From contig OX387192.1 of the NCBI GenBank assembly GCA_947561395.2, positions 6,236,221-6,300,220 of the forward strand: DNA of 64,000 nucleotides. Direction: 5' to 3'. The notes under the pieces were generated by a model. It made no database searches. It was given only the letters and a program-made list of their open reading frames with translations, and was not told the DNA's origin. The translations under genes and the position numbers were made by a program. Shown piece after piece: positions 15,771 through 56,670 of this stretch (positions are counted from its first letter, which is position 1; the number at the start of each line of letters is the position of its first letter). Source of the DNA: Buxus sempervirens. Taxonomy: Eukaryota > Streptophyta > Magnoliopsida > Buxales > Buxaceae.

Positions 15771-15910
15771 TATCCGGATACTCAATCCGGATACAAATAC
15801 CCTTTCCCGTATCCGGATACTCATACCGGATACATGTCGGGCTTAGCGTATCCGGTACCATGTACCGGATATCTTAAAGCCCTTTGTTATCCGGTCTGAT
15901 ATATCGGATA
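15771..15910. repeat. Phased dyad array 1 (LTR): four 7-9-7 inverted repeats at 39-bp spacing
   Basis: Dyads TATCCGG-N9-CCGGATA start at 15771, 15810, 15849 and 15888, exactly 39 bp apart, with unrelated 16-bp spacers. The right arm of the fourth dyad has one mismatch here and is perfect in the LTR at 57257. The array sits about 160 bp upstream of the LTR TATA box. Function unknown; a protein-binding array or enhancer is an inference. Confidence 0.9.
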
Positions 15911-16059
15911 CCTTAAGTTTGCTCAAAATTAGGGTTTTCCGAGAGCTTTTCACTTTTACCATCATGTCCCTCATTAAATGAGGGGAAATCGCGGAAATAA
16001 CCTTAGGGTTTAGGTTGGAGGGGTTCTAGACATTAAGTTGTGTCTACCAATGACCTTAG

Positions 16060-16110
16060 CCCTTGCCTATAAATAGGAGCCTCCTCCTTGAGCAAAGGGG
16101 ACTCAACTCT
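16060..16110 (+). promoter_or_regulatory. LTR core promoter (TATA box)
   Basis: CCTATAAATAGG at 16066-16077 is a strong plant TATA box, which would place the start of the retroelement RNA near 16100. The same site recurs at 36606 and 57645. Confidence 0.75.
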
Positions 16111-17956
16111 TGTTTTGAATTCTCGCAAAGAAGAACTCCAAGAGAAAGAAGAAAACCGCTGTGGAATCGCCTCCAGAACTCAGGTAAGCCTCAACTTTTC
16201 TTTTTATTTTCTGTCTTTACATTCCTAGATCTAGATCTCTTCTTCTACCTTTCTGTAGTGTAAAGCCTTGTTTGTATGTGTGGAAATCCTTCCCCGGCTC
16301 AAAGTATCTCAAGACTCCCCTAGCCGTAAAACGTGAAGGTGGATCTAGGAGAAACGAGACTGGGGATTGACCCTAGTGCTAGAACCTATGTAGCATAAGG
16401 CCTTTTTGATTGATTGTAAACCGTTCCATATTCAAAGTACCCTTGATTATCTTAAAGAGAACAGAGGGAAACGATAATGGAACGGAACCCTAGGCTATGC
16501 TAGAACCTATTTTGTTGAATCTATATGCATGTGTATGGATCTTGCTTGGTTTTTTCACTTTTGCACACATATCACTATTTTGGCGGGATAGGCTCATATT
16601 TGGGGTTTATTGCATTTATTGTGATAAATCTCAAATAAATGGCCTCAATCAATTCTGGAATGCCTTTCGGATGATTTTGAAGTATTTGTGTTCATCTTAC
16701 ACGAATTTCATTTTTTATCAATTTTCGGATTTGGTTTTTACTCAAAAATGGCTTAGCTTGACAGCACCTGTACCCTTACTTCGGACGTCCGTAACTTCAT
16801 CATCTGGATGAATTTTGGGGCGATTCCAGAACCATGGGAAAGGTGAGGCTGTCTAGTTTATGTCCACCAAATTTCATAATTTTCTATCTAGCCGATTTTT
16901 GACACCTCTCTGTCGAAGTTAAGTGGACAGTTCAGGTCCAAGTACAGAACTTGTCACTTCGACGGACCGCCATGTGTTCGTTTTAAGTCCGATTCGAGCG
17001 GTTTTTATTTCTGAGTACTCCTTTTTGAGTCTATTTTCAAATCCAGTTGGTTTCATAATTTTTGGATTCCATTTGAATTATTGGTAGCCGATTTACTCAG
17101 AACTGCTCATTTGCATTTTTCTGGGTAAATCTGTGATCTTCGGGGCCTGTTCGGGAGACCACCCAAGGCACATCCGAAGGGATTTTTGTATGAGGCTAGT
17201 TTCTGTTGAAAGATGGCCATACAGAATTCAATCACACCAAATTTCGTGGATTTCTATGTAGTGGATTTTTCTAGACAATTTTCCAAAGTTGCCCACTTAC
17301 TACTTTTAAAAATCCCCAACAGCAACTTCAAAGGAGCATAACTCCTAGGATTTTTATCGGATTAACTTGAGATTTTGCATGAGCTCCTTATTTATCATAA
17401 TCTTTTAAATAGAGTTGGTTTGAATCAATTCAGAATTGGATTTGAATGATTTTAAGGCAAATGGCATACTTTTTACCGAATTTTCCGGATTTGATTTAAC
17501 TTGGTTTTATGCAACCTCTATTTTGATTTCCATCTTTTGAAATACTTCAGAAGTGATATTGACATAAGAGAAGATCTAAAATCCATTTGGATCTTCATGT
17601 GAAAATATCATACATTGTTCCTTTTTCAAGGTTTCTCATGATTTTTAGCAAGCTTTCTTACTTTGTTTTTTGCATGAATATACACTTGGCAACCACTTCG
17701 TGTGGATGAATGGGGGTGCCTAACACCTTCCCCCGTTCATAATCTAATCCCCTTACCCATCTCTGGATTTGATTTTCAAGTAGGGTTATTTTTATCCTAG
17801 AATGTTTCTTTTGGCTATTTTTGCCCACTTTTAAACTTTTGGTGTCCATTCTCACCCCAAAATCATGAATGGTGGCGACTCTCCCAATTTTTGCGTTGAG
17901 CCCGTGTGTTGACGGAGGGACGATCACTCCGGTGATTTTTTCCCATGTCTCACAAC

Positions 17957-17975
17957 TGGCGACTCTGCTGGGGAC
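17957..17975 (+). other. Primer binding site
   Basis: TGGCGACTCTGCTGGGGAC begins 2 bp after the LTR end. TGG opens the complement of a tRNA CCA tail, and TGGCGACTC..TGGGGAC resembles the Arg-tRNA site reported for Ogre/Tat elements. Confidence 0.75.
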
Positions 17976-19767
17976 GTGTGGATTTAAGCCATTTTGTTTG
18001 TTCATGCTTTTCTATACTTTTGGATGCTTGCTATTTTGATTACTCTATTTGGGCATATTGTTACATTTCAAATCAGATTGGTATGCTTTGGATAATGGCA
18101 TAAGCATGTTGCTTGATTTTTGTTGAAAAGAAAACCCATATTGTGATATGACTTGGCTATATTATGTGATAGCATGTGTTATTTTGGGGTTTGAAGGCCA
18201 TGAGCTAAAAAAAAAAAATACAATATTTGAAATCTGGAAATTTTATGTGTATTTTGGGTATTCAAGCATGTTTTGCCATGAATAAAGTTTTTTTGTGCTT
18301 AATGTTTGTATGATGCCATGCCTTTGATTTGGGGGTATAGGAAGACTTGATTTGAGCATGAAAGTAAAGGGAAAAAAATCTGGAAATTTAGTGCATATTT
18401 TGGGAGTTTTAAAGCATGCTTTTACCATCAAAACTTTTCTCGTATCATGTCAAGTAGTGCTAAATTTTTAGGCATCAACTTGGGGTAGAAATGGTATACT
18501 TTGAGCATGAAAAAGAGCATGAAATCTGGGATTTTAGGGAATGCTTTTGAGTTTCAAGCATGCTTACATGAGTTGATTGTTGTTTGCACAAATAACATGT
18601 TTTGTATACCACTTTTTGGGCATGTAATATTTTTGTGCATATTTGGTGCTTGCTTGCTTGTATTTAGCTTCATTATTTTGTCATATATGCCTTGGCTTGA
18701 AATTGAATGCATGGCTACGAAAAAGAGTGGCAAGGGGCTGGGACGTTGTGAATGATTACCACAATTTTAAAATTGCACTTGAGCACTTGAAACAATTTGC
18801 ACATCCTACCCTTTACCTATTAGGAAGTTGAACCATGAATGTGTGTAGCTTGGCGCACCGAGGTCGTGACTTCGGAAAGCGAAAGTGAAAACATTTACCT
18901 TAGAATTTGAGTCAATGATGTGATGACAATGGGATCTGTGATTCGATTCCGGGCATCACTAGACTTGAGTTCTAAGTTGCCAATTAAGCCAAAACCCAAA
19001 AACCATACGCTTGAAGGTGGAGAAACACGTTTTCGGCTAAAAGCACACAATTGCGTTTGGGGAATTGGGTGTAAATGTGGGAAGGCCGTTTGCATGTTTT
19101 ACAGGCCAAGGTATAATGTGAATACCATATTGAATGAAGGTAATACAAGGTGACAAGGTAAAACCATGTTCTTTTCATGAATTTGGGGATTTTGCAAATA
19201 TAATGTCCAAGCCCAATTTGGGGCAAGTTTTGAAGGTCAAATTAAGGTGAACATCAATTGGGAATGAAAAAAAATCAAATCTGGTGAAAAAATGAGTCAA
19301 AAAGGGCCATTTCGGCAATAACCGGCAACTCAGGCCGGTTAATAACAACCCTGTTCATATCCGGTATATATTTCCGGATAAAAAGGCATATGCGTGAATC
19401 CGGTTATGGTAACCGGATACAATAAGGCATATTATTATCCGGAATGTTATACCGGATACGTTCAAAAATGCACAAATTGGCTTTTCAGCCCAAGTTTTCA
19501 GAATAAAATGCCTAAAACACTGTGGATAATCCTTAGGCACCCCGAAAAGAACATAAGAACTGTTCCCAAAAATACAAAAAAAAAAAAAAAAGAAAAACAA
19601 AAAAAAAGAATAAAATAAAATATTCTTTCAGGATTTAACCTAAGTTTGAAAATCAAAGAGGAAACCAAGGTGTCATATTTTTTGACACCAACTCAACTCA
19701 AACATGTGTCAGTCAAACTCTGGAACTTGAAAACTAAGAAAATTCAGCAAATTTGAAGAAAAAAAAA
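17976..19767 (+). other. Non-coding leader of the inner element
   Basis: No long frame is present; the ORF1 seen upstream of gag in some Ogre elements is absent. Between about 18230 and 18560 loosely related phrases recur (AATCTGG(A/G)A.TTT, CATATTTTGGG, TTCAAGCATG, TTGAGCATGAAA), an old low-grade repeat. Dyad array 2 lies near the end. Confidence 0.7.
19319..19458. repeat. Phased dyad array 2 (leader): four dyads at 39-bp spacing
   Basis: Dyads start at 19319, 19358, 19397 and 19436, all exactly 39 bp apart. The first has arms TAACCGG and CCGGTTA: both arms changed together relative to the consensus, so the symmetry is kept. The third has one mismatched outer pair. Spacers differ from those of the other arrays. 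Confidence 0.9.
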
Positions 19768-21444
19768 CCTTTGGTTGGTTATTTTTATCAATCAAATCAA
19801 AAAAAGTGGGACACTTGGAAGCCCTAGAATATTCCATGAAAACCTTGGTTGGTTATTTTTATCAATCACATCAAAAAAAAATAAAAACCTTTGGTTGGTT
19901 ATTTTTATCAATCAAATCAAAAAAAGTGGGACACTTGGAAGCCCTAGAATATTCCATGAAAACCTTTGGTTGGTTATTTTTATCAATCACATCAAAAAAA
20001 AATGAAAACCTTTGGTTGGTTATTTTTATCAATCAAATCAAAACATTTGTGGGATACTTGGATAGAGTAGTCCAAGACACCTTTGGTTGGTTATTTTTAT
20101 CAATCAAATCAAAACATTTGTGGGATACTTGGATAGAGTAGTCCAAGACACCTTTGATTGGTTATTTTTATCAATCAAATCAAAACATTTGTGGGATACT
20201 TGGATAGAGTAGTCCAAGACACCTTTGATTGGTTATTTTTATCAATCAAATCAAAACATTTGTGGGATACTTGGATAGAGTAGTCCAAGACACCTTTGGT
20301 TGGTTATTTTTATCAATCAAATCAAAACATTTGTGGGATACTTGGAAGCCCTAGAATATTCCAAGACACCTTTGATTGGTTATTTTTATCAATCAAATCA
20401 AAACATTTGTGGGATACTTGGAAGCCCTAGAATATTCCAAGACACCTTTGATTGGTTATTTTTATCAATCAAATCAAAACATTTGTGGGATACTTGGATA
20501 GAGTAGTCCAAGACACCTTTGGTTGGTTATTTTTATCAATCAAATCAAAACATTTGTGGGATACTTGGAAGCCCTAGAATATTCCAAGACACCTTTGATT
20601 GGTTATTTTTATCAATCAAATCAAAACATTTGTGGGATACTTGGAAGCCCTAGAATATTCCAAGACACCTTTGATTGGTTATTTTTATCAATCAAATCAA
20701 AACATTTGTGGGATACTTGGATAGAGTAGTCCAAGACACCTTTGGTTGGTTATTTTTATCAATCAAATCAAAACATTTGTGGGATACTTGGAAGCCCTAG
20801 AATATTCCAAGACACCTTTGGTTGGTTATTTTTATCAATCAAATCAAAACATTTGTGGGATACTTGGAAGCCCTAGAATATTCCAAGACACCTTTGGTTG
20901 GTTATTTTTATCAATCAAATCAAAACATTTGTGGGATACTTGGATAGAGTAGTCCAAGATACCTTTGGTTGGTTATTTTTATCAATCAAATCAAAACATT
21001 TGTGGGATACTTGGATAGAGTAGTCCAAGACACCTTTGGTTGATTATTTTTATCAATAAAATCAAAACATTTGTGGGATACTTGGAAGCCCTAGAATATT
21101 CCAAGACACCTTTGGTTGGTTATTTTTATCAATCAAATCAAAACATTTGTGGGATACTTGGATAGAGTAGTCCAAGACACCTTTGGTTGATTATTTTTAT
21201 CAATCAAATCAAAACATTTGTGGGATACTTGGAAGCCCTAGAATATTCCAAGACACCTTTGGTTGGTTATTTTATCAATCAAATCAAAACATTTGTGGGA
21301 TACTTGGATAGAGTAGTCCAAGACATCTTTGGTTGGTTATTTTTATCAATCAAATCAAAAAAAAAAATGAAAACCTTGGTTGGTTATTTTTATCAATCAA
21401 ATCAAAAAAAAATTGGGACCCTTGGAAGCCCTAGAATATTCCAA
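19768..21444 (+). repeat. Minisatellite with higher-order structure, about 24 units
   Basis: Units share TTGGTTGGTTATTTTTATC-AATCAAATCAAAA and come in three types. One is 76 bp (with GAAGCCCTAGAATATTCC), one is 71 bp (with GATAGAGTAGTCC), and a short one of about 44 bp lies at the 5' end. In the middle they are ordered 76+76+71 as a 223-bp higher-order repeat, seen at 20300, 20523 and 20746. The open frames through it are by-products of the repeat and change frame from unit to unit, so it is not coding. Confidence 0.95.
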
Positions 21445-21642
21445 CTCAAAACAAAAAAAAAAACAAAAACAAAAACAAAAAATTTTTTTTCTGGCTGGTG
21501 TTCACCTAACCTACTGGTTTACATATATAGGGGTGTGACTCAAGTTAAGTGGAAGCTAACATGTTCTATTCATTTTTTTTCACAGGTACATTTACACTTA
21601 TTGGCAATCATTGCTCCCGTGACCAGATCCAAAGCAAGAACA

Positions 21643-23256
21643 ATGAATACTGAAGAGAACCAAGCCCAAGCTACCGTCCCTGCTCAGGACTTTACTCAAC
21701 TGCAGGAGCAAGTGGCCGGTCTGGCCAAAATGCTGGGGGACCTACTGGCGGCTCAGGCCCAACAGGCCCAAGCCCCGAACCAGGCATCTACTTCCCATCA
21801 GGCACCACCACCTCAGGCCTACATTCCGCCTCCGGTTCAGCCCATGCCTGAGCCCATTTCTGAACCAGTCCCTGAACCCATTCTGATCAGGGAAAATATG
21901 GCGGAGTCTGAGAAAGAGCTGAAGAAAGAAAAGGCCCGAGATGAGATGGAAAAGAAAATGCTGCTGAGGATAGAAAGAATCCAGGCAGAGCTGAAAGAGG
22001 TGAAGGGGGGAGGCAGCCATGCAGGCACCACCTTCGAGGACCTGTGCATGTACCCGGACGTCTGTCTACCGGCTAAGTTCAGGTGCCCGGATTTTGACAA
22101 GTTTGATGGCACGGGCTGCCCATTAAGCCATCTGAAACTATACTGCGGGGCCCTGTGCCAGTTTGGCCGGGACGATGGAATACTGATCCAGCTCTTCCAG
22201 AGGAGTTTGACCGGGTCGGCCCTTCGGTGGTTCGCTACAGTGGACCATGGAAGGATTAGAAGGTGGAAGGACTTGGCCGATGCTTTCTTGGACCAATACA
22301 AGTTCAACTCTGAGATCGTGCCGGACCGGTACGACATGATGAGGATGACCAAGGGGAAAGATGAACCGGTACGGCAGTACGCCAAGAGATGGAGAGAGGC
22401 CGCCTCCCAGGTCAGGCCACCTATGCAAGAGCCGGAGATGATCTCCACATTTATGGGCACACTGGGGCAGCCCTTTTACAACCATCTGGTGGGTCAGATC
22501 ACCACCAACTTTGCAGCCCTGGTACAGGTAGCGGACCGGATTGAGGAAGGGGTCAAGTCAGGAAGGCTGATAGACTACTCCACTCTGACTGGGCAGTCTG
22601 AGTCCTCGGCCTCCATGGCCCAGAAGAAAGGGACCGGATTCAAAAAGACGGGGGCCCGAAAAGAAGGGGAGGTGAACCTAGTCCAGGCTCCTCCAGCCAA
22701 GAAGCCACTTCACGTCAACATCTCGGCACCCCAACAGGCCCAGCAGGCCCAGCAGTCGTACCAAACCCCGATGAATGTCAACTTCTCTCCTTCTGTGCCA
22801 GCTAACACAAGGAGGACTTTTTCTAAGGAGGAGCGGGATGCCTGGTTCGCAGCAAGAAAGAACCGGGTTTTCACCCCTCTACCCATATCTCTTTCCCAGC
22901 TATTGCCAACCCTGCTAAAGGGTGAATACTTGACTCTGAAAGAGCCTAACCCGAATGCCACCAGAGGGAGAAATTTTGACACATCGGTCACCTGTGACTT
23001 CCACATGGGTGCACCGGGGCATTCTACAGATACTTGCTGGGTATTGAAGCATGCGGTCCAGGACCTGTTGGACCAGAAGGCCTTGGTGTTCAACACTGCT
23101 GCACCGGCCCCGTCCGGGAATGATATTGGGCAGAACCCTCTGCCTTACCACAATGGGGCAGGCCCATCCAACTCCATCACTGCCATATCCACCACCAGAA
23201 GGGCCTTTGACCCATCACAGCTCATAGCCCCTGTGGGGACCACAGTCCAGGTCTGA
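21643..23256 (+). CDS. Retroelement gag (inner element, first copy)
   Basis: The ATG at 21643 was chosen because the open frame upstream runs into the minisatellite and because a strong 3' splice site ends at 21585. The product is about 537 residues. It has a Q/P/A-rich N-terminus (about 1-90), a charged E/K-rich helical stretch (about 90-125) and the Retrotrans_gag capsid-type domain (about 146-305, with FRCPDFDKFDG, LTGSALRWF and PVRQYAKRW). A zinc-knuckle-like CDFHMGAPGHSTDTCW lies near 451, in the form usual for Tat gags. The family role is to form the particle that packages the element RNA. Looks whole. Confidence 0.9.
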   Translation: MNTEENQAQATVPAQDFTQLQEQVAGLAKMLGDLLAAQAQQAQAPNQASTSHQAPPPQAYIPPPVQPMPEPISEPVPEPILIRENMAESEKELKKEKARDEMEKKMLLRIERIQAELKEVKGGGSHAGTTFEDLCMYPDVCLPAKFRCPDFDKFDGTGCPLSHLKLYCGALCQFGRDDGILIQLFQRSLTGSALRWFATVDHGRIRRWKDLADAFLDQYKFNSEIVPDRYDMMRMTKGKDEPVRQYAKRWREAASQVRPPMQEPEMISTFMGTLGQPFYNHLVGQITTNFAALVQVADRIEEGVKSGRLIDYSTLTGQSESSASMAQKKGTGFKKTGARKEGEVNLVQAPPAKKPLHVNISAPQQAQQAQQSYQTPMNVNFSPSVPANTRRTFSKEERDAWFAARKNRVFTPLPISLSQLLPTLLKGEYLTLKEPNPNATRGRNFDTSVTCDFHMGAPGHSTDTCWVLKHAVQDLLDQKALVFNTAAPAPSGNDIGQNPLPYHNGAGPSNSITAISTTRRAFDPSQLIAPVGTTVQV

Positions 23257-23289
23257 TTCTTCCCCGAGGAGGAAAAAGAGGAGATCAAC

Positions 23290-25355
23290 ATGGTCTCCCA
23301 AAAAAATAATAATCTTGCTGCTGAGGACATAAGTTCCTCTCTAAACCGGGTCTCTTCACTCATGGCCCAGATGAATACTGCAAGACCCCCATTGGTCTTC
23401 AATTGCAGTCCACCCATTTATTCACCATCCAAGCCGTCTAAGGCTCCACTGGTCATCAATCTTGACCCCACCACTGCTTCCATCACTTCTTCTGTCCCCA
23501 CCAAATCCAAACTTCAACCCCTGGTTGTAAATGTGCAGCCAGCCCATACTATCCTTAAACCGGCCCATACATCCCGGTCCAAACTCCAGCCACTAGTGGT
23601 TGACATCCCTAAATTAGCCTATTCAGAGGCCGCTGTACCATGGAACTACAGCGAGGGAATCACGGCTACGGTTCCAGCGGTTAGAAACCCGAACCAGGAG
23701 GAGGTAAACCTCATGACGAGGTCAGGGAGATGTGCAGGGGGTGAAGAGAAAGAAAAAGAGACAGAAGTAGAAAAAGAAAAAATAGAAAAAGAAAATGAAG
23801 AAAAAAGAAAACAGAAGGGAAAAAATAAAGTGGGAGAAGACACCCCCCAGGGTGCAGAAAATGAGGCAGCAGACCTCATAAAAATCATCAAGAAAAGTGA
23901 ATTCAATCTTGTGGACCAGCTGAACAAGGTCCCGGCCCAGATTTCAATACTGGGCCTTTTGCTGAATTCCGAAAAGCATAGGGATGCATTGTTAAGGGTG
24001 CTGCAGAGTGCACACGTACCCCAGACAATTGATCCAGACCAGCTTGGTAAAATGGTTGGTCAAATCTTGTCACATAATGTGATAAGTTTCTCAGAGGGTG
24101 AGATCAGCCCAGGTGGGTGTTATCATGTGGACCCTTTGCACATCACTGTGCTTTGTAAGGGCTGCATGGTTGCACGGGTTTTAATTGACAACGGGTCAGC
24201 GTTAAACGTTTGCCCGTTAATCACTTTTACCAAACTGGGTCTGGACCAGTCGAGGATCAAACGGAATGGGCGGATAGTGAGGGCTTTTGATAGCTCCAAG
24301 ACCCACTCCCTAGGGGAGATTGAACTGCCGGTCACAATTGGGCCGAATATCTTTAACATCACATTTGAAGTGATGGATATACCCGCAGCTTTCAATCTGC
24401 TCCTAGGAAGGCCGTGGATACATTCGGCTAGGGCAATACCATCCACGCTCCACCAGAGGGTGAAATACATAAGAGGGCAAAGGGTGATAACAGTCCTAGC
24501 CGAAAACTTGGTGCCGCCCATTGTGTCACCTGATGTACCCTTGATCAATGTTGATCTAACTGTCGACAAGATTGCATTCCACTCATTTCAATTTGAGGCG
24601 GTAAATTACATACCTGGGGGGTGTGAGAAAAAGAAAGAAAAGGGGACCACTGCAGAAAGGATGGTCAAGAAAGTGATGGAGAAATACCACTTTCACCCAG
24701 GGAAAGGCCTGGGGATCAATCTGCAGGGGATGGTGGAGCCAATCACGGCTAAGAAACTGATCCCCAAGGTAGGGTTGGGCTTCAAGCCCAGAGGTTGGAG
24801 AAGAATGAAATACGAAGAAGGGGAGAGCAGAAGCAAAGGAAAACTCCTTCATTTAAGGGAAAGTTTCCCTAAACCCGCTTATATAATCCAAATTTCTCCT
24901 CCCATGGACCAGTCCAAGCCTCCATACCACAACCTCAACCCATTTCAGAAGCCTGTTGTTTCGGCCCTACAACCCTATAACTCATCTCCAATACTGGGAG
25001 CAGTGGATGGGCTTGGACCACAGCCCGAGCAGCAGGTTGACTTTTCTGAAGATGTTGGTGCATTCTTCGCCATGACTGAAGGCGAAAAGACAGGGGCAGA
25101 CATGGACCTGCCATTTATTGACTGGGCCGCAGTAAAGGTTCCAGACAAGGTCATTTCTGGATTGGGCCCCGCAGCAGAAAAGGGCAGTACCCACCCGGTG
25201 ATGATGGCATCCGATGCTGGGTTTGAAGAGCAGGCTTTCCCTATTTCCCCTGCTCCCCAAAATTTTGTACTGAACAATTGGGAGGAAACTCCCCTTACCT
25301 TTGAAGCAGCGTCTGTGTGGCAAACTGACGCGGCTTCCAAAAAAAAACTCCAATA
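23290..25355 (+). CDS. Retroelement protease region with G-patch-like segment (first copy)
   Basis: It starts at an ATG shortly after gag, in a different frame from it. The first ~150 residues are P/S/K-rich, then comes an E/K-rich stretch. The aspartic protease core has LIDNGSALNV (catalytic D near residue 300) and the flap/closing part FNLLLGRPWIH. Near residues 458-500 there is HPGKGLGINLQG..GLGFKP, a G-patch-like glycine motif as found beside the protease in some retroviruses and Tat-type elements. How gag, pro and pol are expressed together was not worked out; Ogre relatives are known to splice between pro and pol. Confidence 0.85.
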
Positions 25356-28300
25356 GTGGAATGCCATTTCCCTGAAGGTTCTAATGGGCCTTCGTCTTCA
25401 GGGGAATTATGTTTAGAAGGCCCACAAAAAAACCAAAAAGATTTTTCTATTTTTTCTAGGAAATTTAATTTTTTCAAAAAGGTCCACACCACTTATGAAC
25501 CATATAATCAGACCGAATTGGACCAGGTTGAATATGACTTCGACCTTGAGCTCGACTTTGATCTCATGGGGGTCGAAGAAGAGACCGAGGTCGAAGAAGA
25601 AGACGTTCCAAAAGAAATTGAATACCAATTGGAACGTCATGAAAAGGGGGTCCAACCTAATATTGAGGAGACCATATCCATAAATCTTGGGACCACAGAG
25701 GACCCAAAAATTGTGAAAATCGGGTCATGCTTGTCTGATGTGCAGAAAAATGAAATGTCACAATTCTTGGCAGATTACAAGGATGTGTTTGCTTGGTCAT
25801 ATCGGGACATGCCGGGGTTGGACACAGACATGGTGGTGCATAAGTTGCCAATTTTGCCAGGGGTTAAGCCGATTAAGCAGAAGCTGAGAAGATTGAAGCC
25901 GGAATGGACCTTGAAGGTCAAGGATGAAGTGGTCAAACAATTTCAAGCCGGATTTTTGGCAGTTTCTACATACCCAGAGTGGCTTGCAAACATAGTGCCA
26001 GTACCAAAGAAGGACGGGAAGGTCCGAATGTGCGTGGACTATAGAGACTTGAACAGGGCAAGCCCGAAGGACGATTTCCCGCTTCCACACATCGACATTC
26101 TGGTCGATAATACTGCGGTACATAGCTTGTTTTCCTTCATGGATGGTTTCTCAGGATATAATCAGATCAAGATGGCTAAGGAGGATCAAGAGAAAACAGC
26201 ATTTATCACACCTTGGGGTACGTTTCACTATACAGTCATGCCGTTTGGGCTTAAGAACGCTGGGGCAACATACCAGCGGGCCATGACTGCACTATTTCAT
26301 GACATGATCCATAAGGAGATGGAGGTCTATGTGGACGATATGATTGCCAAATCATGCAAAGAGGAGGACCACTTGATCAATCTGAAGAAAGTGTTTGATC
26401 GGCTCAGGAAGTACAGTCTACGGCTTAACCCAGCTAAATGCGTCTTTGGGGCTACATCAGGGAAGTTACTGGGGTTCATAGTAAGCCGAAGAGGAATTGA
26501 AATTGACCCGGCTAAAGCCAAGGCCATAATTGAAATGCCAGCACCCAGAACTGAGAAGGAGGTTCATGGCTTTCTTGGAAGGATTCAATACATAAGCCGG
26601 TTCATAGCACAGCTCACTGCTATCTGTGAACCAATTTTCAAACTTTTGAGGAAAGATAACCCGACGGTCTGGAATGAGGACTGCCAGCAGGCATTTGACA
26701 CAATAAAGAGGTATTTGCTGAACCCACCTGTGCTAGTGCCACCAACTCCAGGAAGACCACTGATACTGTACTTGTCAGTGTTGGAAACGTCAATGGGATG
26801 TGTCTTGGGGCAGCATGATGAGACTGGTAGAAAAGAAAGGGCAATTTACTATCTGAGTAAAAAATTCACGGAATATGAAGCCAAATACTCACCATTGGAG
26901 AAGACTTGTTGTGCTCTAGTGTGGGCCACTCAGAGGCTAAGGCATTATTTCCTTAGTCACTCCACACTATTAATATCCCGGATGGACCCTCTGAAATATT
27001 TATTTGAGAAACCGGCACTGACTGGCAGGACGGCAAAGTGGCAACTGCTACTGTCCGAATTTGACCTCACGTACATCACCCAGAAGGCGATCAAGGGTCA
27101 AGCCATAGCTGATCACCTGGCTGCACATCCTTTGCCAGAATATCAACCCTTGAAGACCAACTTCCCAGATGAGGCAATTCTGTACACTGAAGAGGAGGAC
27201 AGTGAGAGTTCTTGGCAAATGTTCTTCGATGGGGCCGCCAATATGAATGGGAACGGAATAGGGGCAGTCTTGGTTAAACCAGATGGTTCACATATCCCGA
27301 TTGCAGTAAAACTGAGATTCCAGTGCACCAATAACATAGCAGAATATGAGGCGTGCATAATTGGATTGCAAGCAGCCATGGATCATGGAGTAGAGGAACT
27401 TGACGTATATGGGGATTCGAGTCTTATCATCTTCCAAACAACTGGTGAGTGGAAAACCAAGGATCACAAATTGATCCCCTATCACCAGTACTTGGAAGAA
27501 ATAAGCACAAATTTCACTCGAATTTCCTTCAACTATATGCCAAGGGCCAAGAATCAGTTTGCGGATGCTCTAGCAACATTAGCTTCAATGGTCAGCATAC
27601 CAGAAGGAGTAGACATCAGACCGCTGGAAATTGAGGTCCGAGATGAACCGGCTTACTGTCTCGTTCTAGAGGGAGCACCAGAAGAAGAAACACCATGGTT
27701 TCAAGATATCAAGAATTTCTTGAACAATCGGAGTCTGCCAGAAAATGCCACTGCTACTGAGAAGAGGACAATACAGAGATTGGCTGGTCAATTTCTGCTA
27801 AGTGGTGGACATGTGTACAAGAGGTCACATAACGACATTCTGCTCAGATGTGTTGCCAAGGCTGAATCGGAAAGGCTGATTGAGACTGTACATGGAGGAG
27901 TCTGTGGGCCCCATATGAGTGGGCACATGCTGGCTAAGAAGATCCTGAGGCTGGGATACTACTGGACGACCATGGAGCGTGACTGCTGTATACATGTCAG
28001 GAGGTGCCATCAATGCCAAATCTATGCAGACAACAAGCATGCACCCCCAGGTGAGCTGCACAACATGACATCACCCTGGCCCTTCTCTATGTGGGGCATA
28101 GATGTTATTGGCATGATCTCCCCTAAGGCATCGAACGGACACAGATCCATCCTGGTGGCGATTGACTATTTCACTAAGTGGGTGGAAGCAGCCTCATATG
28201 CAAATATCACTAGCAACCATGTTATTAAATTTTTGAAGCACAACATTATTTGTCGCTATGGACTGCCAAGTGCCATAGTATCAGACAACGCTTCAAATAT

Positions 28301-28943
28301 TAAGAACAAGGACATGAAGAAAATGTGTGAGCAGTTTCAGATCACCCACCACAAGTCAGCTCCGTACAGGCCAAAGATGAATGGGGCAGTAGAAGCAGCA
28401 AACAAAAACATAAAGAAAATCATTCAGAAGATGGTAGTGAGCTACAAGGATTGGCATGAAATGCTGCCACTTGCTCTGCATGCATACAGAACCTCGATCC
28501 GGACTTCAACTGGGGCAACCCCATACTCCCTAGTCTATGGGATGGAAGCAGTCTTGCCCGTGGAAGTAGAGATCCCCTCACTCCGAGTGCTCATGGAAGC
28601 AGAGCTAGAAGAAGCCGAATGGGTCCAGTCGAGACATGATCAACTTAACCTGATAGAAGAAAAGCGGTTGAAAGCACTTTGCCATGGACAGTTGTACCAG
28701 AAGAGAATGGCCCGGGCCTACAATAAGAAGGTGAGGCCCAGAACTTTCCAAGAAGGAAACTTAGTGCTAAAGAAAATCTTACCATTTTTGGAAGACCCTC
28801 GTGGTAAGTTCAAACCCAATTGGGAGGGCCCATATGTCGTCAAGAAAGTCCTATCAGGGGGTGCACTCATCTTAGCAGAAATGGATGGGTCAGATTTTCC
28901 TGAGCCCATTAACTCTGATGCGGTAAAAATGTATTTTCCTTGA
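25356..28943 (+). CDS. Retroelement RT - RNase H - second RNase H - integrase (first copy)
   Basis: An acidic linker is followed by reverse transcriptase (VPKKDGKVRMCVDYRDLN near 216, MPFGLKNAGATYQRAM, catalytic YVDD at about 325-328). Next come a first RNase H fold (SMGCVLGQ..AIYYLSKKFTEYE) and a second one (MFFDGAANMNGNGIGAV, D near 625; NNIAEYEA; VYGDSSLI; NQFADALATLAS), the archaeal-type RNase H characteristic of the Tat clade. Integrase has an HHCC zinc module (near 846-885) and a DDE core with D916, D977 and E1013 (35 residues between the last two). No chromodomain is visible at the C-terminus, in keeping with a non-chromovirus. The first ATG is not certain because the linker may be joined to pro by the splicing known in the family. 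Looks whole. Confidence 0.93.
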   Translation: MECHFPEGSNGPSSSGELCLEGPQKNQKDFSIFSRKFNFFKKVHTTYEPYNQTELDQVEYDFDLELDFDLMGVEEETEVEEEDVPKEIEYQLERHEKGVQPNIEETISINLGTTEDPKIVKIGSCLSDVQKNEMSQFLADYKDVFAWSYRDMPGLDTDMVVHKLPILPGVKPIKQKLRRLKPEWTLKVKDEVVKQFQAGFLAVSTYPEWLANIVPVPKKDGKVRMCVDYRDLNRASPKDDFPLPHIDILVDNTAVHSLFSFMDGFSGYNQIKMAKEDQEKTAFITPWGTFHYTVMPFGLKNAGATYQRAMTALFHDMIHKEMEVYVDDMIAKSCKEEDHLINLKKVFDRLRKYSLRLNPAKCVFGATSGKLLGFIVSRRGIEIDPAKAKAIIEMPAPRTEKEVHGFLGRIQYISRFIAQLTAICEPIFKLLRKDNPTVWNEDCQQAFDTIKRYLLNPPVLVPPTPGRPLILYLSVLETSMGCVLGQHDETGRKERAIYYLSKKFTEYEAKYSPLEKTCCALVWATQRLRHYFLSHSTLLISRMDPLKYLFEKPALTGRTAKWQLLLSEFDLTYITQKAIKGQAIADHLAAHPLPEYQPLKTNFPDEAILYTEEEDSESSWQMFFDGAANMNGNGIGAVLVKPDGSHIPIAVKLRFQCTNNIAEYEACIIGLQAAMDHGVEELDVYGDSSLIIFQTTGEWKTKDHKLIPYHQYLEEISTNFTRISFNYMPRAKNQFADALATLASMVSIPEGVDIRPLEIEVRDEPAYCLVLEGAPEEETPWFQDIKNFLNNRSLPENATATEKRTIQRLAGQFLLSGGHVYKRSHNDILLRCVAKAESERLIETVHGGVCGPHMSGHMLAKKILRLGYYWTTMERDCCIHVRRCHQCQIYADNKHAPPGELHNMTSPWPFSMWGIDVIGMISPKASNGHRSILVAIDYFTKWVEAASYANITSNHVIKFLKHNIICRYGLPSAIVSDNASNIKNKDMKKMCEQFQITHHKSAPYRPKMNGAVEAANKNIKKIIQKMVVSYKDWHEMLPLALHAYRTSIRTSTGATPYSLVYGMEAVLPVEVEIPSLRVLMEAELEEAEWVQSRHDQLNLIEEKRLKALCHGQLYQKRMARAYNKKVRPRTFQEGNLVLKKILPFLEDPRGKFKPNWEGPYVVKKVLSGGALILAEMDGSDFPEPINSDAVKMYFP

Positions 28944-29879: not shown

Positions 29880-31597
29880 CTAGTCTCCTAGCCGTTCCTC
29901 AAGCTCCCGAATCCGAGCTGCCTGAGCTGCAATGACTCCTGAAGCCCCCTCTGCAGCGGGATCACTCAGGAAGGAAATGACCTCATCTGAAAGGGCCTGC
30001 TTGATCCTCATACTCCTGAGGCTAGCCAAAGTAGCTTGGTAATTCTGCCGGATCATACGGACCTCGAAGCAACGGGCCTGCCTTTGCTCCTCCAGCTTCT
30101 CTTCCGCGGCAATACGGCGTGAGGTCTGCTCCTCAAGCTGCCTCTCCAGATAAGCACTCTGTATCCTGAGCTCCTGGGCCTCCCGTACCCATATCTGCTG
30201 AAGCCGCTTATGAGAAACCCGCTCAGACTCTAGAATGTCCTCATAGGTGGGAGCCAAGACTACAGGAGGATCTTCGGGTACTGGGGCCTGAGTCTGTATC
30301 TGTTCCTTGATCCAGAAGAGATAATCCTTCACATGGGCTTCTGAGAAGACGGGACCATGCATAAAGCGGACATAAGACCACTCCTTCATCAACCAGGCAT
30401 TCAGCTTCATAGAAAGAGGCCCAAGACGATCCTCGTATCCATATGGGATGATAATCCCCTGGGTCGCTCGGAACTGACGAAGAACCCGCAGAGGAAGATA
30501 AAGCACTGCATGCCTCAGGCCAGCCAGAATCAGAAAGTTGCGGTCTCGGAAGCTAATCACTGTCTCCGCATTGGGCTGATAAGTACCAGGCCATCTCACC
30601 TAGTCATCCTGAAGCGAGCCCAAGAAAGTGAACCAGCCCTGTTTGCCCCCTGGAATATCGGGGCACCCCCTGTTGCTCATCAACAGAGGGACTTTCAGAC
30701 TCGGGAAGAAGTGTCGATTGATCTCTTCAATCTGGCTCAAATGATCAAGTAGCCAAAGCTGCAAAGGAAAAGAAAGGTGTCAGCACATTGTATATAAATA
30801 AAAAAAAAAAATAAAAAAAAAAGAAGAAGCAAAAAAGGCAAAAAGAAAGCCAAAAAGCAAGAAAAAAAGAAAAAAAAAATTTTTTTTACCTGCAGGATCT
30901 GGGCACATGCTAGGAAGCGTTTCGACTTCCTATTGTAGCAGTCGGTCAAGGCCTGATATATCCCAGCCAAAATCATAGGGGCCAACCTCTCCCGCTCCCT
31001 AACCTGGCATATCACGGAAATCAAGGCCAAGTCCACCTCGTCATCCTCCCGTGGGAAAAGCAACTGGTTGACCACTATCAGGGTCAACGCATTGAATCGG
31101 GCCTCCTTATCTTCTCCCCTCAAAAGCTTCTCAGTCAAAAAAGCCTTAGATAGGGTCAAAAGGGTGTCAGAATCCCCCAAGTCCTTCTTCCCTATGCCCA
31201 AAAAAGTAGAAGCTTCCTTCTTGTAACTGGGCCTAAGAGGTGGATTCACCACCTTCTCATCAAACCTCAGGCCCAGGATGGTTTCCACCTCTTCAATGGT
31301 TGGGGTCATCTCATGGGTCCCAAAACGGAACAAGTTGAGATCAGGAACCCAATGACCAATCATGGCCTCTATAATCTCCCACCTGAAGGGAACCTTGGGA
31401 ATGAGCAGGGTATGGCCTAGATTGGTAGTACCCCATCTCCTCTCCTCATCTAGGGACATAGAGTTAACCCACCTTGTGTAAAAGGAATCCACAGGGTTGT
31501 ACCTAGTGAGATTTGGGGGTTTTGATCTAAAAGGCTGTTTTGCAGGGGAGGCAGTGTGGACAGACAATAACGGGGCAGAAGATGATCCGGATTCCAT
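29880..31597 (-). CDS. Antisense gene II of the inner element (first copy): DUF7745/plant-mobile-domain-like, coiled-coil C-terminus
   Basis: It is read on the strand opposite to gag-pol. One coding block (31597-30890) has the motif run FRFGTHEMTPTIEEVETILG, typical of the plant mobile domain / DUF7745 superfamily, and ends at a CAG/GTAAA donor. After an A/T-rich intron the next region (30758-29880) begins after TTTGCAG and continues the same family (LRHAVLYLPLRVLRQF, IIIPYGYEDRL). It ends in a long R/E/Q-rich coiled coil (about the last 120 residues). About one apparent break is seen. A minus-strand TATAAATG lies at 31708-31715, with dyad array 3 just upstream. Host relatives of this superfamily are nuclear factors linked to silencing and genome stability; the role in the element is unknown. 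Confidence 0.75.
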
Positions 31598-31707
31598 TGG
31601 ATTTGACGGGAGCAAGCTAGAACTCAAGAGGAGGAAGCAAAAGGCGAAAAAGGGGGTTTCTAAACTCAAAAACTCGTAAAAAAATGCTCAAATCCCGAGG
31701 CAGGTTG

Positions 31708-31715
31708 CATTTATA
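31708..31715 (-). promoter_or_regulatory. Putative TATA box of antisense gene II
   Basis: The minus strand reads GCTATAAATGC, about 110 bases upstream of the start codon at 31597. Dyad array 3 begins 14 bp further upstream. Inferred from sequence and spacing. Confidence 0.5.
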
Positions 31716-31728
31716 GCATCTTTTAACA

Positions 31729-31867
31729 TATCCGGTAACTCAGACCGGATACAAAAGCTTTATACATATCCGGATAAGTATACCGGATACAAAGGATTCC
31801 ATGAATATCCGGTATCACATACCGGATACAAAGACAAATCAATGTATCCGGTATGTTAGACCGGATA
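31729..31867. repeat. Phased dyad array 3 (antisense promoter): four dyads at 38-39 bp spacing
   Basis: Perfect 7-9-7 dyads TATCCGG-N9-CCGGATA start at 31729, 31767, 31806 and 31845. Arms are identical and loops differ. The array abuts the TATA box of antisense gene II. Confidence 0.92.
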
Positions 31868-38494: not shown

Positions 38495-38513
38495 TGGCGA
38501 CTCTGCTGGGGAC
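38495..38513 (+). other. Primer binding site, second copy
   Basis: Identical to 17957-17975, 2 bp after the LTR. Confidence 0.75.
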
Positions 38514-39856: not shown

Positions 39857-39996
39857 TAACCGGCAACTCAGGCCGGTTAATAACAACCCTGTTCATATCC
39901 GGTATATATTTCCGGATAAAAAGGCATATGCGTGAATCCGGTTATGGTAACCGGATACAATAAGGCATATTATTATCCGGAATGTTATACCGGATA
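39857..39996. repeat. Phased dyad array 2, second copy
   Basis: Four dyads at 39-bp spacing, identical to 19319-19458. Confidence 0.9.
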
Positions 39997-43794: not shown

Positions 43795-43827
43795 TTCTTC
43801 CCCGAGGAGGAAAAAGAGGAGATCAAC

Positions 43828-49481: not shown

Positions 49482-50417
49482 GTGAATATTTCTAGGAAAT
49501 GATCCGAGGCCATTTTTCTTTATTTCCTTCAAAAATTTTAATCCCTAGTCTAGCCAAGTTGAGCCGGTTCGTTTCTTTGATCAACCTAAACCGGATTTAC
49601 AGTCAAATTGGGGCAAAATCAATTGGGGCAAAAGTGAGGAAAGAAAAAGAAAAAGAGAGGAAAAGCAATGGAAATGGCAAATGAAAGCCAAGTGTGAAAA
49701 ATGCAAAAAATGCAATTTGGGGAAAAAGGGTTAAATTCATCATGACTCTAAGTCCGGTTGACCTATTTCCACACTTGAAAATTTTTTGGGCCTTTAATAC
49801 CCTTTCTTTCATAAACTGAGCCTAGCTTTTATTTCGTCCTATTTTTAAGCCCTCGGTGATCTTAGCTTGTTCATTCAAATGTCAGAGTAAGATGGGTGAT
49901 GACGGAATTCAGAAGCCGGCCCTAGTGAAAACCGTAACTGGCGCTAGGGGCAATATTGGCAAAAAGGCAAAAAGAAAAAAATAAGAAAAATGAAAGAAAA
50001 TCAGAGGTTGAGTTGATCATGGGGATCTGAGCTTCAAGCAAAGTCGGCATGAGCAGAATGGGGCAGTTTTGGCAGTTGGGGATGACTCTAAAGGTCCTAA
50101 GAGGGACGGTTCTGATCCCTCAGTATTTTGTGGACTACCCTTTTCATTATTTAACCTGGTTTTAATTCCCTTAATTATAGGTGATTAAGTGCATGGACCA
50201 AATTTCAAAAAATACAAAAAAAAAATATAAAAAGGAAAAATTATACTTTGGCCAGTGATGAGAAATCAAATACTTTTCATAAAACCTTTGTTTTTACAAG
50301 CATCTGAGCATTCTGAGGCCAATAATATAAAAACTTTATTTTGAATTAAATCCTTTGTATTTCCACTATTGGAGTTCAATTTGGTACAAAGGTATGGAAA
50401 ATGTGCAGGAAATAAAG

Positions 50418-52135: not shown

Positions 52136-52266
52136 TGGATTTGACGGGAGCAAGCTAGAACTCAAGAGGAGGAAGCAAAAGGCGAAAAAGGGGGTTTCTA
52201 AACTCAAAAACTCGTAAAAAAATGCTCAAATCCCGAGGCAGGTTGCATTTATAGCATCTTTTAACA

Positions 52267-52405
52267 TATCCGGTAACTCAGACCGGATACAAAAGCTTTA
52301 TACATATCCGGATAAGTATACCGGATACAAAGGATTCCATGAATATCCGGTATCACATACCGGATACAAAGACAAATCAATGTATCCGGTATGTTAGACC
52401 GGATA
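52267..52405. repeat. Phased dyad array 3, second copy
   Basis: Four perfect dyads as at 31729, directly upstream of the antisense gene II TATA box. Confidence 0.92.
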
Positions 52406-52621
52406 CCGAGAAAAAAATGCAAAAAAGGAGCTAAGGATGAAAAAATCCGAATTTTTTTACCTGTTTTACCTGCTTACAAGTCATAATTGCATAGAATGGA
52501 GAGCAAAAGATGTGCAAGACATGATAGAGTGAATAAAAAGTTTTTTTCATATATATCTGAAAGTTTTTGTACAGGGATGATAAAAATACATGAAAATGAA
52601 AAATATAATCCTAATCTACTC

Positions 52622-55301
52622 CTATGCAGGATCATCCCCGCGTCCTCGGCCGCGTCCACCTCTACGGCGTCTCCCCCAAAGGGCTCGGCCTCTAGAGTAT
52701 GCAAGAATCCGCTCGGCCGCATGGCGAGGATGCCGACCTACCACCTGCTGAAGATGATACTCCAAGCAATAATCCTCGAGATCTGGGGGAGGAGCAGGAG
52801 TAGAATCGGGGGAAGAAGCCTCGGGCTCAGTAGCAACCGGCCCAACTGGGCCCTCATCCAAAGCATCCTCTGCTCCCGCAGCTCCAGAAGGCCCAGCATC
52901 AGCAGCAGAGGGGCCAGGATCAGAAGTAGCTGAGTCCACAGAAAAGAGAAAAATCAGGAGACTCAGATATAAGGAAGAGTAAAAGAGGAGAATGAAAAGA
53001 AGATCATACCAGGAATGTCTGCAGAAGGAGCAGGGGGATCCGGCTCGTCAGGATCAGCAGCTGGGACATCCACAGGATCAGAGGCCCGAGCAGGAGATGG
53101 GTCAGGAATCAGGAAATCATGCTCAAAGAAGGCATCCTGATCATGGACCGGGCCCTGCACAAGTCAAACAAGCATATCAGAATAGCAGAAACAGGAAAAT
53201 AATGAAAGAAATGAACATATGAGAAGGCCAGATACCTGTCTAGACTGGAGCTCAGCAACTAGGGCCTCCAGCTCCCTGATCCGGGCATCCCGCTGGGCCA
53301 CGACCGCATCGTGCTCCGCGATCATATCATCGATCGCAGCCCGCTGGCTCTCGAACCGGTCCCGAATGGAGTTCAGCTCGTGTACCTGCCAATAAGAACG
53401 GAAGCATGGTCAGAAAGGCATAAGGAAGGAAAAGAGGATAAAAATGGGAAGAGTACAAGGCTTACCGTGTCCTCATGGATCCGGATACGGATCCCGCAAA
53501 TCTCTGTCACCCCGGCACGAGTGGGTCGATCCATCAAGCATCCAATAGACACCCTCTGGAACCACTCGTCATAATCTCCGGCTGCTGTGAGCCCCTCGGC
53601 ATCCAGGAAGTGATCAAACTGATCCACATCGAAGCCAGGAAGGAGAGTATCGGGACCCACAGCAGGAGGAGGGACGGGGATGCGAAGTGCGCCAGTGTGC
53701 TGGTAGTACAGGCGCTCTCCCAAGTACATCACCCTACCAAGCCTCCCAAGGAAGCACTGGTAAGGCTGACGTCGGAGATCTCTCTCAAAAGCATCCTGTA
53801 CTGCCATCTCACGGGCAACTCCGACATCCACGTCATCTGGACGGGATAGAATGAGCTGCAAAGAAGCAAAGTGGTCAGATACAGTCAAGATACAGGAAAG
53901 AAAATAAAAGAAAAAATAGAGGACTTACATCAGATCGGCGTGCACGGTCTAAGTGCACCCGAGCGGTATGAGGCTGGCTCCTATCGGCATCTCGAACCTG
54001 GGCCGACCATCGCAGGGCCACAGGGAAATCCGCAACCTCAGGAACCGGGGAGGGGCGGAAGAAGGTCATATAGGTGTACATGAACACCTAGCAAAAGAAA
54101 AATCAGTCAAGAAAAGATAAAGCCTAAAGAATTAAGCCAGACAGATGAATGCAATACCTGTAAAATCTGCCAGAAGAACCGGCTGCTGACTCCATCACCT
54201 CTAGGAGATGCTAAGCCTCGAACCGCTCGGCACAGCCCGGCCAAGATGGTCCCATAGATCAGCCGACCCCATGCTAGCTGGCGGGTCTGATAGAAATCTC
54301 TCAAGGCGTCCAAAAAGAGCGGACTGACACCGGTAGTATCCTCCGGGAAGAAGCAGCTCCCCAACATCAGCAGGAATACATGTCGGAAAATCGGCGCAAA
54401 GGCTGCATCCTCCACAGAAACGGTCTCGTGCCTCCTCTCAAAATGGCGAGCCAGACTCTCCCGCAGCCAGCTAATGGAGAGCCGGCCACTCCTCCCATCC
54501 CAGGCAGTAGGTGGCAGGGCCTGATATCCCAAAAGGAGGCCAATATCCTCCGAAGAAGGCCGCTCCAAGACAATGGTCCGCCCCGTCAGAGGAATGCCCG
54601 TAATCATCACAAAATCAGAGGGGCGGATCCCCAGCTCCACGTCTGGCAGATGGAATGACTGCGTCTCGGGGAAATATCTCTCCATCATGGCAAAAATAAG
54701 CGGACGGTCGGCTCTGAACGATGGAATACTGAGGAAGTGATCCAGGTGGCACCTCCCAAACTCCCGCCTGAGTGCCGGAGAAAGTGACCGTGCCAACTCG
54801 TTGAATCTCCCCCAGCTGCCGCGCAAGTGAGAAGAGTAGTAGGGAAGCGGCACATCCGCCCTGATGCACATGGAAGGATGGCTATCCAAGTCATGGAGAA
54901 GCTCTGTATCCTGAACAGAGGCCCTCAACTCCTCAGAGACCCCGGCCAGAGCCACAGCAACCCCCTCCGGAGCCGTATCTCTGGCTCTGCCTCGGCCTCT
55001 GCCACGGCCTCTCTCGCCCTCAGGGGCCTGATCCTGAACTCTGCCTCTGCCTCGGCCTCGACCCCGAGCCGGTGCAACCACGGGCTAAAATTCAAGAGAA
55101 AGGTGTGAAGGTTGTGTGGGAAAGAAGGATAGAAGAAAGAAAGAAAAATTTTTGGAAGCCTACCTCAGCGGAACTCTCTCTGGAGACATCTAGCGGCTCC
55201 GACAGAGTGGCGCTGGAACTCGCCTCTGTCCGAGCCCGCGAACTGGAGGGCTGATCAGCAGGGTCAACCTCCTCTCTAACTCGAGAACGACTCCTAGCCA
55301 T
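52622..55301 (-). CDS. Antisense gene I, plant mobile domain protein (second copy)
   Basis: The same seven coding blocks, shifted by 20,538. The only substitution seen between the two 20.5-kb units falls here (54527, C in the first copy and T here) and is synonymous in the plant mobile domain block. Unlike the first copy, its natural upstream region continues to the 3' LTR. Confidence 0.8.
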
Positions 55302-56608
55302 CTACACAGGGAAGTGTTTTATGAATTTCAGTTTAAATTTATAAAATCTGGCTTTGCTTATAATTCGCGTTCAGATTACATAATTTTTCCAGATTATCGT
55401 GAATCATGTCTCGAGGGCATTTTATCGGTTTCAGTACAAGGTTTTCAAAAAAGTGTTTGGTATTTCTGATTAATTAATAATCTTGTGCCAAGTTACTTAT
55501 CAGAAACTTTACCTTACTTTTGTCTAGGTTCACAGGATTTCTATTATGTCTCGAAGGGAGACACTCATGGAGACAGGATAAAAGCAGAAGTGAAAATTGA
55601 CAAACTGGGTCAAGAAGAAAGGGAAAATTTACAGCAGGGTATGGTGATGAACAATTCTAAATCAACTATGGGCAAAATCCGAAAGTCATGCCAATGAGGC
55701 ATAAAGCAAAAGATGTGATTTTGGGTAAACCATCCGAAAGTGTCGGATAATGCCATTCAAGAATTCAGAAGTAAAATTGCTACTAAATGATCAATATTGT
55801 GGAATTACTGGTCATGGATAAAGAAAAACAATAACAATATGACATATGAGGATTCACTTATCATGGAAGATCATGAAGTTGTTAAAAAGCAGCAATTCAG
55901 CAATCAAGCTATGCAGTGTTATCAACTACTACGAATTGAAGATCCTGTTTGCAAGCAGCAAAGCATCATGCAGTACAGAGCAATATGCCAAATTAAAGCA
56001 AGTTACATGGCATGGCCTTAAGACTAAAAATTCGGCATCTACCAGGCCAAAGACAGTTCAGCCAAGGATTCATTCACAAAGAAACATCCTGAAAATTGTA
56101 AGGTTATTCACTAAATCTTGCTTACATGGGGAATTAAGCAATCAACCACATCCAAGGCCAATCACAGAATTATCAGCAATCGGACAATCAAGATAAACAA
56201 GGAAATATTGAAGCTGCTGATTACTGGTTGGCTAAGCAATGAAGAAAAAACCTGATTGCAGGTAAAAGATCCGGTGTAGAACCGCCGGAAAATGATTGGA
56301 GAGTCGCCGGAATTAGGGAGCAATCCCCAAAGGTTGGAACGTCCAATGCCAAGCTGAGAAATCGCAAGGAGACAGGAGAAATCGAGCTAGGGCTCGACTA
56401 CTGCTATAAATGGGCAAATAGTGAAAGTGGCCGGAGCAAGGAGCAACCGCCGGCAGCAATAGAAGTCGCCGGAGCTACTGGAGATCGCCGGAAAAGCAAG
56501 ACGAGTCGTCGGGGACGAGGACGAGAGCTTGGGGCCGGTCTGAGTAATCGGAGCAAGAAGAAAGAAGAGGAAAAGTCGCGGTCGCGCGCGACTTAAGTAA
56601 ACCTGCGG

Positions 56609-56670
56609 GATCCGGATACTCAGGCCGGATACCCGTAGACCCTTGATTATCCGGATACACTTACCGGATA
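56609..56670. repeat. Phased dyad array 4: two dyads, 39 bp apart
   Basis: Dyads start at 56609 (first base varied: GATCCGG) and 56648, with the same 7-9-7 geometry and 39-bp step as the other arrays. It is cut short to two units by a GA-rich low-complexity tract. Confidence 0.8.

Follow-up and report, generated by a model that had tools for sequence, protein, structure and literature searches.

Phased TATCCGG-N9-CCGGATA dyads in four parts of a Tat/Ogre-like retroelement of Buxus sempervirens as probable binding sites of a symmetric protein

The stretch analysed here, termed the window, comprises 64,000 nucleotides of contig OX387192.1 from Buxus sempervirens and contains one Tat/Ogre-like Ty3/gypsy element, whose full copy occupies 36218-59531 (23.3 kb) and is for the most part tandemly duplicated. 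Arrays of the dyad TATCCGG-N9-CCGGATA, repeated at a nearly invariant step of 39 bp, are located in its long terminal repeat (LTR), its leader, the promoter region of an antisense gene and its 3' region. As judged from the sequence, these arrays are quite probably DNA-binding sites of a symmetric protein, an estimate that leaves the identity of the partner aside.

Dyad arrays

With up to three mismatches allowed, the dyad was matched 32 times in the window, vs 1.27 expected from 100 dinucleotide shuffles (mean 1.27, largest count 5), which excludes chance. Thirty of the 32 matches fall inside the arrays listed below, and the remaining two, at 32940 and its duplicate 53478, carry three mismatches each.

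15771-15910, unstranded: LTR array, four dyads, steps 39, 39 and 39 bp; copies at 36309-36448 and 57348-57487
19319-19458, unstranded: leader array, 1.36 kb past the LTR, four dyads, steps 39, 39 and 39 bp; copy at 39857-39996
31729-31867, unstranded: antisense-promoter array, four dyads, steps 38, 39 and 39 bp; copy at 52267-52405
56609-56670, unstranded: 3' array, two dyads, step 39 bp; single copy

Owing to the tandem duplication, the LTR array is present three times, the leader and antisense arrays twice and the 3' array once, so that removal of duplicates leaves 14 distinct dyads (LTR 4, leader 4, antisense 4, 3' region 2). Four-dyad arrays extend over 139-140 bp; of the ten steps, nine measure 39 bp and one 38 bp. 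An earlier note on this DNA had placed arrays at 15771, 19319, 31729 and 56609 with 7-bp arms, 9-bp loops, a 39-bp step with a single 38, and 4, 4, 4 and 2 dyads; all four positions and the whole of this geometry were recovered.

The arms are almost confined to the arrays, which hold 15/15 TATCCGG and 23/24 CCGGATA within the 23.3-kb element, leaving one half-site in the element outside them; neither heptamer was found elsewhere in the window outside the element. A search for three consecutive perfect phased dyads (loops 0-20, steps 25-80) returned the LTR and antisense arrays only, the LTR array with two offset readings.

Extended half-site and close packing

Half-sites (n=28) were counted with the 3' LTR copy. 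The A at position 2 and the CCGG are invariant (28/28), and T occupies positions 1 and 3 in 26/28 each; in the other two LTR copies, the right arm of dyad four additionally has T in place of C. Conservation continues beyond the arms. A pyrimidine occupies position -6 in 27 of the 28 half-sites (left 14/14, right 13/14; 7/8, 8/8, 8/8 and 4/4 by array), a signal with P=0.0002 for at least 27 (4 of 20,000 spacer shuffles, each scored by its maximum across 15 positions and 3 letter classes), and the spacer of the single 38-bp step keeps the expected -6 letter at both sides. Position -1 is G in 17/28 and never C (0/28; p 0.0002 over 16 columns), while the inner three loop positions, in half-site direction, contain no G and 10 C among 84 letters (two-sided 0.002, uncorrected for the choice of test).

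The implied half-site is Y-N4-G-TATCCGG-HHH, about 16 bp in length; a dyad would then cover about 35 bp, and at the 39-bp step neighbouring footprints would be separated by about 4 bp. We read this step as probable close packing rather than alignment on a single helical face. The earlier note had proposed sites on one face of the DNA; such phasing is rejected, because 39 bp at 10.5 bp per turn corresponds to 3.7 turns, no whole number, and the distance between successive half-site centres alternates between 16 and 23 bp.

A mechanism may be proposed on this basis, in which the arrays would serve as close-packed sites for a dimeric sequence-specific DNA-binding protein and constitute one shared control module placed in several non-coding parts of the element. 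Each monomer would read a half-site of about 16 bp, with two half-sites facing each other across 3 bp, and dimers with footprints of about 35 bp would follow one another each 39 bp with a gap of about 4 bp. The sites, their spacing, the symmetric positions, the lack of such sites in the remaining element save for one half-site, and the location of two arrays above TATA boxes can be read directly from the DNA, while protein binding, the dimeric state and a function of the binding are what we infer.

Shared ancestry and retention of the arrays

The earlier note had described loops and spacers as unrelated between arrays. This holds for the spacers, which in register agree at 93/288 letters vs 90.7 permuted (p=0.38); the loops, by contrast, agree at 90/162 letters vs 68.5 permuted (p=0.002), and ACTCA stands at one loop place in 5/14 dyads, namely each array's first dyad plus the second LTR dyad.

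15778-15786, 19326-19334, 31736-31744 and 56616-56624, plus strand: first-dyad loops with ACTCA, from the loop alignment

When the arms are masked, alignment is better than for shuffled sequence in two of the six pairs of arrays (p 0.013 and 0.017), the remaining four giving p 0.16-0.33. Since the loops resemble one another in register and ACTCA is common to all first dyads, the arrays are probably diverged copies with order and strand kept, which departs from the earlier view that they are not simple recent copies of each other.

The arrays also retain CpG. The leader is CpG-poor (observed/expected 0.31), and its array holds 9 CpG vs 0.9 expected at the density of the remaining leader; the corresponding values are 11 vs 3.1 for the LTR array, 8 vs 4.6 for the antisense array and 5 vs 1.6 for the 3' array. 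This excess is partly built in, as the motif itself contains CG, whereas its survival beside diverged spacers is not.

The resemblance of same-register loops and the two better-aligning array pairs would also be expected of a functionless old 39-bp tandem repeat, in which a copying mechanism perfects near-palindromes. Such a leftover is most improbable: the arms and lengths persist while the spacers have come down to the permuted level, the -6 signal, which falls beyond the palindrome, is unmatched between halves, and CpG is retained in a CpG-poor leader. The selection on symmetry and spacing suggested earlier thus gains support, because arms, 9-bp loops and 38/39-bp steps persist, spacers are unalike and symmetric extra positions appear.

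Position relative to promoters

Candidate promoters were sought by a scan restricted to TATAAA and TATATAA.

16068-16073, plus strand: TATA box TATAAATAG of the LTR sense promoter, by sequence; other copies at 36606 and 57645
31710-31715, minus strand: candidate TATA box of antisense gene A, by sequence; second copy at 52248-52253

As the earlier note had stated, two arrays lie upstream of TATA boxes. A distance of 157 bp separates the end of the LTR array from the downstream TATAAATAG, and the antisense array is located 13 bp upstream of the minus-strand TATAAATGC. If occupied, the arrays would tune the LTR promoter and antisense gene A coordinately, and might protect those regions from methylation. 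The 3' array lies about 1.3 kb upstream of the putative first ATG of antisense gene B; the TATAAA nearest to it are at 56405 on the plus strand and 55338 on the minus strand, neither of which was placed as its promoter. Just ahead of this array, the GC-rich segment 56260-56600 contains a plus-strand CTATAAATGG at 56404 and is a possible further promoter.

Duplex DNA site or RNA stem

The earlier note had left two alternatives, sites for a dimer on DNA or a structure in RNA. Conserved positions outside the arms favour the former. The halves are complementary at -6 in 6/14 dyads vs 7.2 shuffled and at -1 in 5/14 vs 5.5, so neither position co-varies; a stem would demand such co-variation, and a dimer on duplex DNA therefore fits better than an RNA hairpin. 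A second outcome points the other way, as the outer position -5 is complementary in 7/14 vs 3.7 (p=0.046, uncorrected, one of eight positions tested).

Hairpins in RNA (or a cruciform) would mean that the arms pair in genomic RNA for packaging, export or small-RNA production. The three arrays of 139-140 nt fold strongly on both strands, with z of -6.3 to -8.6 vs shuffles, and palindrome clusters in Sirevirus LTRs attract small RNAs (PMC10760457, citing Bousios 2016). Fold strength was nevertheless rejected as a specific signal, as every TATCCGG is able to pair with every CCGGATA and, in the minimum-energy plus-strand folds of all four arrays, some stems link arms of separate dyads; the two-dyad 3' array folds weakly (z -2.5 and -1.9).

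Further pairing is found in the third dyad, where all three arrays that have one carry three additional complementary pairs of differing sequence. Taken as proof of a stem, this signal weakened from P 7e-5 with pooled letters to 0.002 with columns kept, and the inner pairs of all dyads reach 21/42 vs 16.5 (p=0.08). The paired arm change TAACCGG/CCGGTTA in the leader had been offered as evidence of maintained symmetry, to be checked as an excess over single changes; it is a single case (p=0.07) and does not carry that argument. The arms, moreover, are fixed in sequence beyond what pairing alone would ask for, and vary too little to be informative on co-variation. On balance RNA hairpins are very unlikely to account for the arrays.

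Several of these observations weigh against the reading of the arrays as dimer sites on DNA. The third-dyad pairs and the lone paired arm change speak most strongly for pairing and find no explanation in a DNA-dimer model; the -5 value given above is a further pairing signal. ACTCA orients every array alike on the plus strand, though the two TATA boxes point in opposite directions, and breaks the symmetry. A possible common ancestry of the arrays means that the dyads are not fully independent, and all statistics come from this window, that is, from 14 dyads in one element. Placement at a promoter holds for two of four arrays, the leader and 3' arrays being without a clear one, and a second minus-strand TATAAA lies in the first spacer of the antisense array (52297-52302 in the copy).

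Antisense PMD genes and the binding partner

A Pfam scan of 10 open reading frame (ORF) pieces of the window, together with structure prediction, described two antisense genes that match the plant mobile domain (PMD).

30740-31687, minus strand: antisense gene A, first exon region, PMD (Pfam 51.3 bits, cutoff 34.9) and DUF7745 (63.7 bits, cutoff 26)
29883-30599, minus strand: later ORF of antisense gene A (membership probable), with a 93-residue predicted helix
33572-34546, minus strand: antisense gene B, PMD region (Pfam 51.4 bits, cutoff 34.9) with an RG-rich start
32087-33386, minus strand: probable later exons of antisense gene B, 32838-33386 and 32087-32509, putatively joined

The first ATG used in the main ORF region of gene A is at 31597. 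Both PMD ORFs score above the curated cutoff of PF10536 (51.3 and 51.4 vs 34.9 bits), and their PMD regions share 23% identity with each other. The probable later exons of gene B gave no Pfam match at E 0.1. In the later ORF of gene A, the 93-residue helix is a candidate dimerisation coil; the model, a single-sequence prediction, has 53/239 residues at a predicted local distance difference test score (pLDDT) of at least 90, a mean of 60.5 and a predicted template modelling score of 0.36. An in-frame stop at 30600-30602 precedes this ORF in both tandem copies, and the gene copy may be defective or spliced otherwise.

That the binder is an element-encoded antisense PMD protein, as the earlier note had guessed for the antisense products, is plausible though doubtful, and gains circumstantial support from the two antisense PMD ORFs above cutoff and the 93-residue predicted helix. 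The PMD region itself adds nothing in favour of such a role: its structure model is unusable (mean pLDDT 38.2), and a PDB sequence search returned a single match at E 0.88, with no solved structure that fits. The element combines PMD genes with a candidate target that is precise and repeated, one array lying directly above the candidate TATA box of a PMD gene, and this conjunction turns the open function of PMD and antisense genes into a simple question of binding.

In Arabidopsis, the PMD proteins MAIN and MAIL1 have a role in silencing. PMD domains encoded by Gypsy elements belong to clades A1 and A2, and PMD captured in MULEs has been suggested to be anti-silencing, with the function of the domain still open as of 2017 (PMC5418596). 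Genes dependent on MAIN/MAIL1 share a promoter motif unlike the array motif (PMC7156037, PMC9899485); this 'DOWN' motif, with CATGCAGTTT as the MORC1 example (PMC9899485), was considered as the array site and rejected. The literature passages available report no direct DNA binding by a PMD protein. A fuller version, in which the PMD protein is a homodimeric, methylation-sensitive or anti-silencing factor that coats the 140-bp arrays in the LTR and at its own antisense promoter, is rather unlikely. If true, PMD-A would play for Tat/Ogre elements the part that VANC plays for VANDAL elements, and the host proteins MAIN and MAIL1 may descend from a self-recognition system.

VANC21 binds YAGTATTAY, which forms one-orientation arrays in non-coding parts of VANDAL21 (PMC5735166, PMC10398659). 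As in the Buxus element, a short motif is repeated mainly in several non-coding parts; there the binder is encoded by the element and its target regions coincide with CG methylation and silencing (PMC5735166, PMC10398659). VANDAL differs in lacking dyads, in being a MULE DNA transposon and in having DUF1985 rather than PMD, and binding is proven there while it is a hypothesis here (PMC5735166, PMC10398659). The Pfam matches obtained with the 10 ORF pieces include neither DUF1985 nor a MULE transposase.

For the antisense ORFs of Retand/Tat elements, a regulatory DNA-binding role was suggested by the author of PMC11963269, while PMC7264820 gives these genes no determined function. They encode TRP28 rather than the PMD found here, and the available text of both papers (PMC11963269, PMC7264820) contains no proposal of a target site. 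The foamy virus protein Tas resembles the proposed scheme, being encoded by a retroelement and binding the LTR promoter as well as an internal one; it differs in belonging to an animal retrovirus, binding being a hypothesis for the plant element (PMC4929722).

The same DNA sites may have another partner. A host transcription factor could bind them, the arrays then being an ordinary LTR enhancer copied to further parts of the element; we regard this as a serious possibility, though somewhat short of probable. LTRs of Sireviruses (Ty1/copia) contain palindromic boxes with a CGG-CCG core in 12/13, upstream of the TATA box, and env-bearing members have further palindromic boxes above env (PMC2829016). 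Several CCG/CGG-core palindromes in the LTR above a TATA box are thus common to both, as a functional analogy only; the Sirevirus boxes likewise form CpG islands, and the citrus box AATCCGG-N4-CCGGATT is one base per arm away from TATCCGG/CCGGATA (PMC2829016). Unrelated lineages would in this case exploit host factors through CCG/CGG palindromes, and the PLACE database gave the Sirevirus authors mostly sites of stress factors (PMC2829016).

The likeness has its limits. Sirevirus boxes occur in a Ty1/copia host, vs the gypsy domain order found here by Pfam; they number at least eight copies, their centre is 0-4 bp (from the table as interpreted) vs 9 bp here, and the available text mentions no fixed step (PMC2829016). 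Their extra copies precede a sense env gene, whereas those of the Buxus element stand above an antisense gene and in the leader (PMC2829016). The Sirevirus authors, too, were unable to name a common factor (PMC2829016), and no host factor for TATCCGG-N9-CCGGATA was found in this analysis; for LOB-domain factors, known as CCGG binders, the literature search gave nothing usable. Given the Sirevirus likeness, a self-encoded binder is no more likely than a host factor. Together with the Sirevirus boxes, the arrays would suggest, if the reading as binding sites is true, that CCG/CGG palindromes arose in copia and gypsy lineages alike.

Domain content and lineage

The sense strand of the element encodes the following products.

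21166-23256, plus strand: gag ORF, Retrotrans_gag (Pfam 44.6 bits, cutoff 24.1)
23257-25356, plus strand: G-patch ORF, in the gag frame past one stop codon (Pfam and ORF list)
25329-28943, plus strand: reverse transcriptase (RT), RNase H, second RNase H (RVT_3) and integrase (Pfam)

The Pfam order RVT_1, RT_RNaseH, RVT_3, rve is the gypsy order, with RT ahead of integrase, and corresponds to the domain content of Tat/Ogre elements. Tat elements are characterised by a dual RNase H, and plant gypsy elements repeatedly carry PMD and G-patch domains (PMC9289625). By domain order and dual RNase H, the element appears Tat/Ogre-like.

Searches for relatives and parallels were made in literature and sequence collections. 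Among the open-licence papers listed by motif-directed searches, none was seen to describe arrays of this kind for a Tat/Ogre element, and none of those listed for the exact motif had a title concerning retroelements. In viral contigs, the single-dyad pattern selected 107 stretches, none of them similar to eight protein pieces of the element (E 1e-3) or to the DNA of the window (E 1e-5); pol and PMD queries found no relative there, and there were 0 matches for a relaxed phased pattern as well as for two degenerate RT motifs. One viral contig (L050:3480-3800) carries dense TTATCCGG/CCGGATAA repeats at irregular spacing, with no similarity to the element found. Among bacterial and archaeal genomes, a dyad followed by the next arm occurred in three bacterial stretches vs about 0.6 expected under even base use, and these are taken as chance.

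Element structure and genomic setting

Self-comparison of the window identified three LTRs of 2275 bp each (15680-17954, 36218-38492 and 57257-59531).

15680-17954, plus strand: LTR copy 1 (TGTAGACACC...GTCTCACA), by self-comparison

LTR copies 1 and 2 are equal in sequence, and copy 3 differs from both at 7/2275 places, so that the element is young. The 5' LTR is followed by sequence starting ACTGGCGACTCTGCTGGGGAC. By the same comparison, a tandem duplication of 20.5 kb repeats 14547-35086 as 35087-55626; besides 1.1 kb of flank, it takes in an LTR and most of the element. The tandem copies are told apart by a single base and a 2-base length change near 15476, a near-identity that points to either a recent duplication or an assembly error, both being possible.

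On either side of the element stands GGTTC, a target duplication of 5 bp, and the same target is seen in a paralogous empty insertion site at about 13321-13340. This element-free paralogue (13133-14169) is 92.0% identical to 15481-15679 and 93.6% to 59532-60374. A 71-bp repeat in about 18 copies runs through 20008-21360, in the leader and on into the beginning of the gag ORF, for which Tandem Repeats Finder also gave periods of 147 and 223. None of the four flank ORFs of at least 130 aa has an above-cutoff Pfam match, and the flank at 5249-5569 contains a degenerate 20-bp repeat, GGGTTAAACAAGTCATTATC, in about 16 copies.

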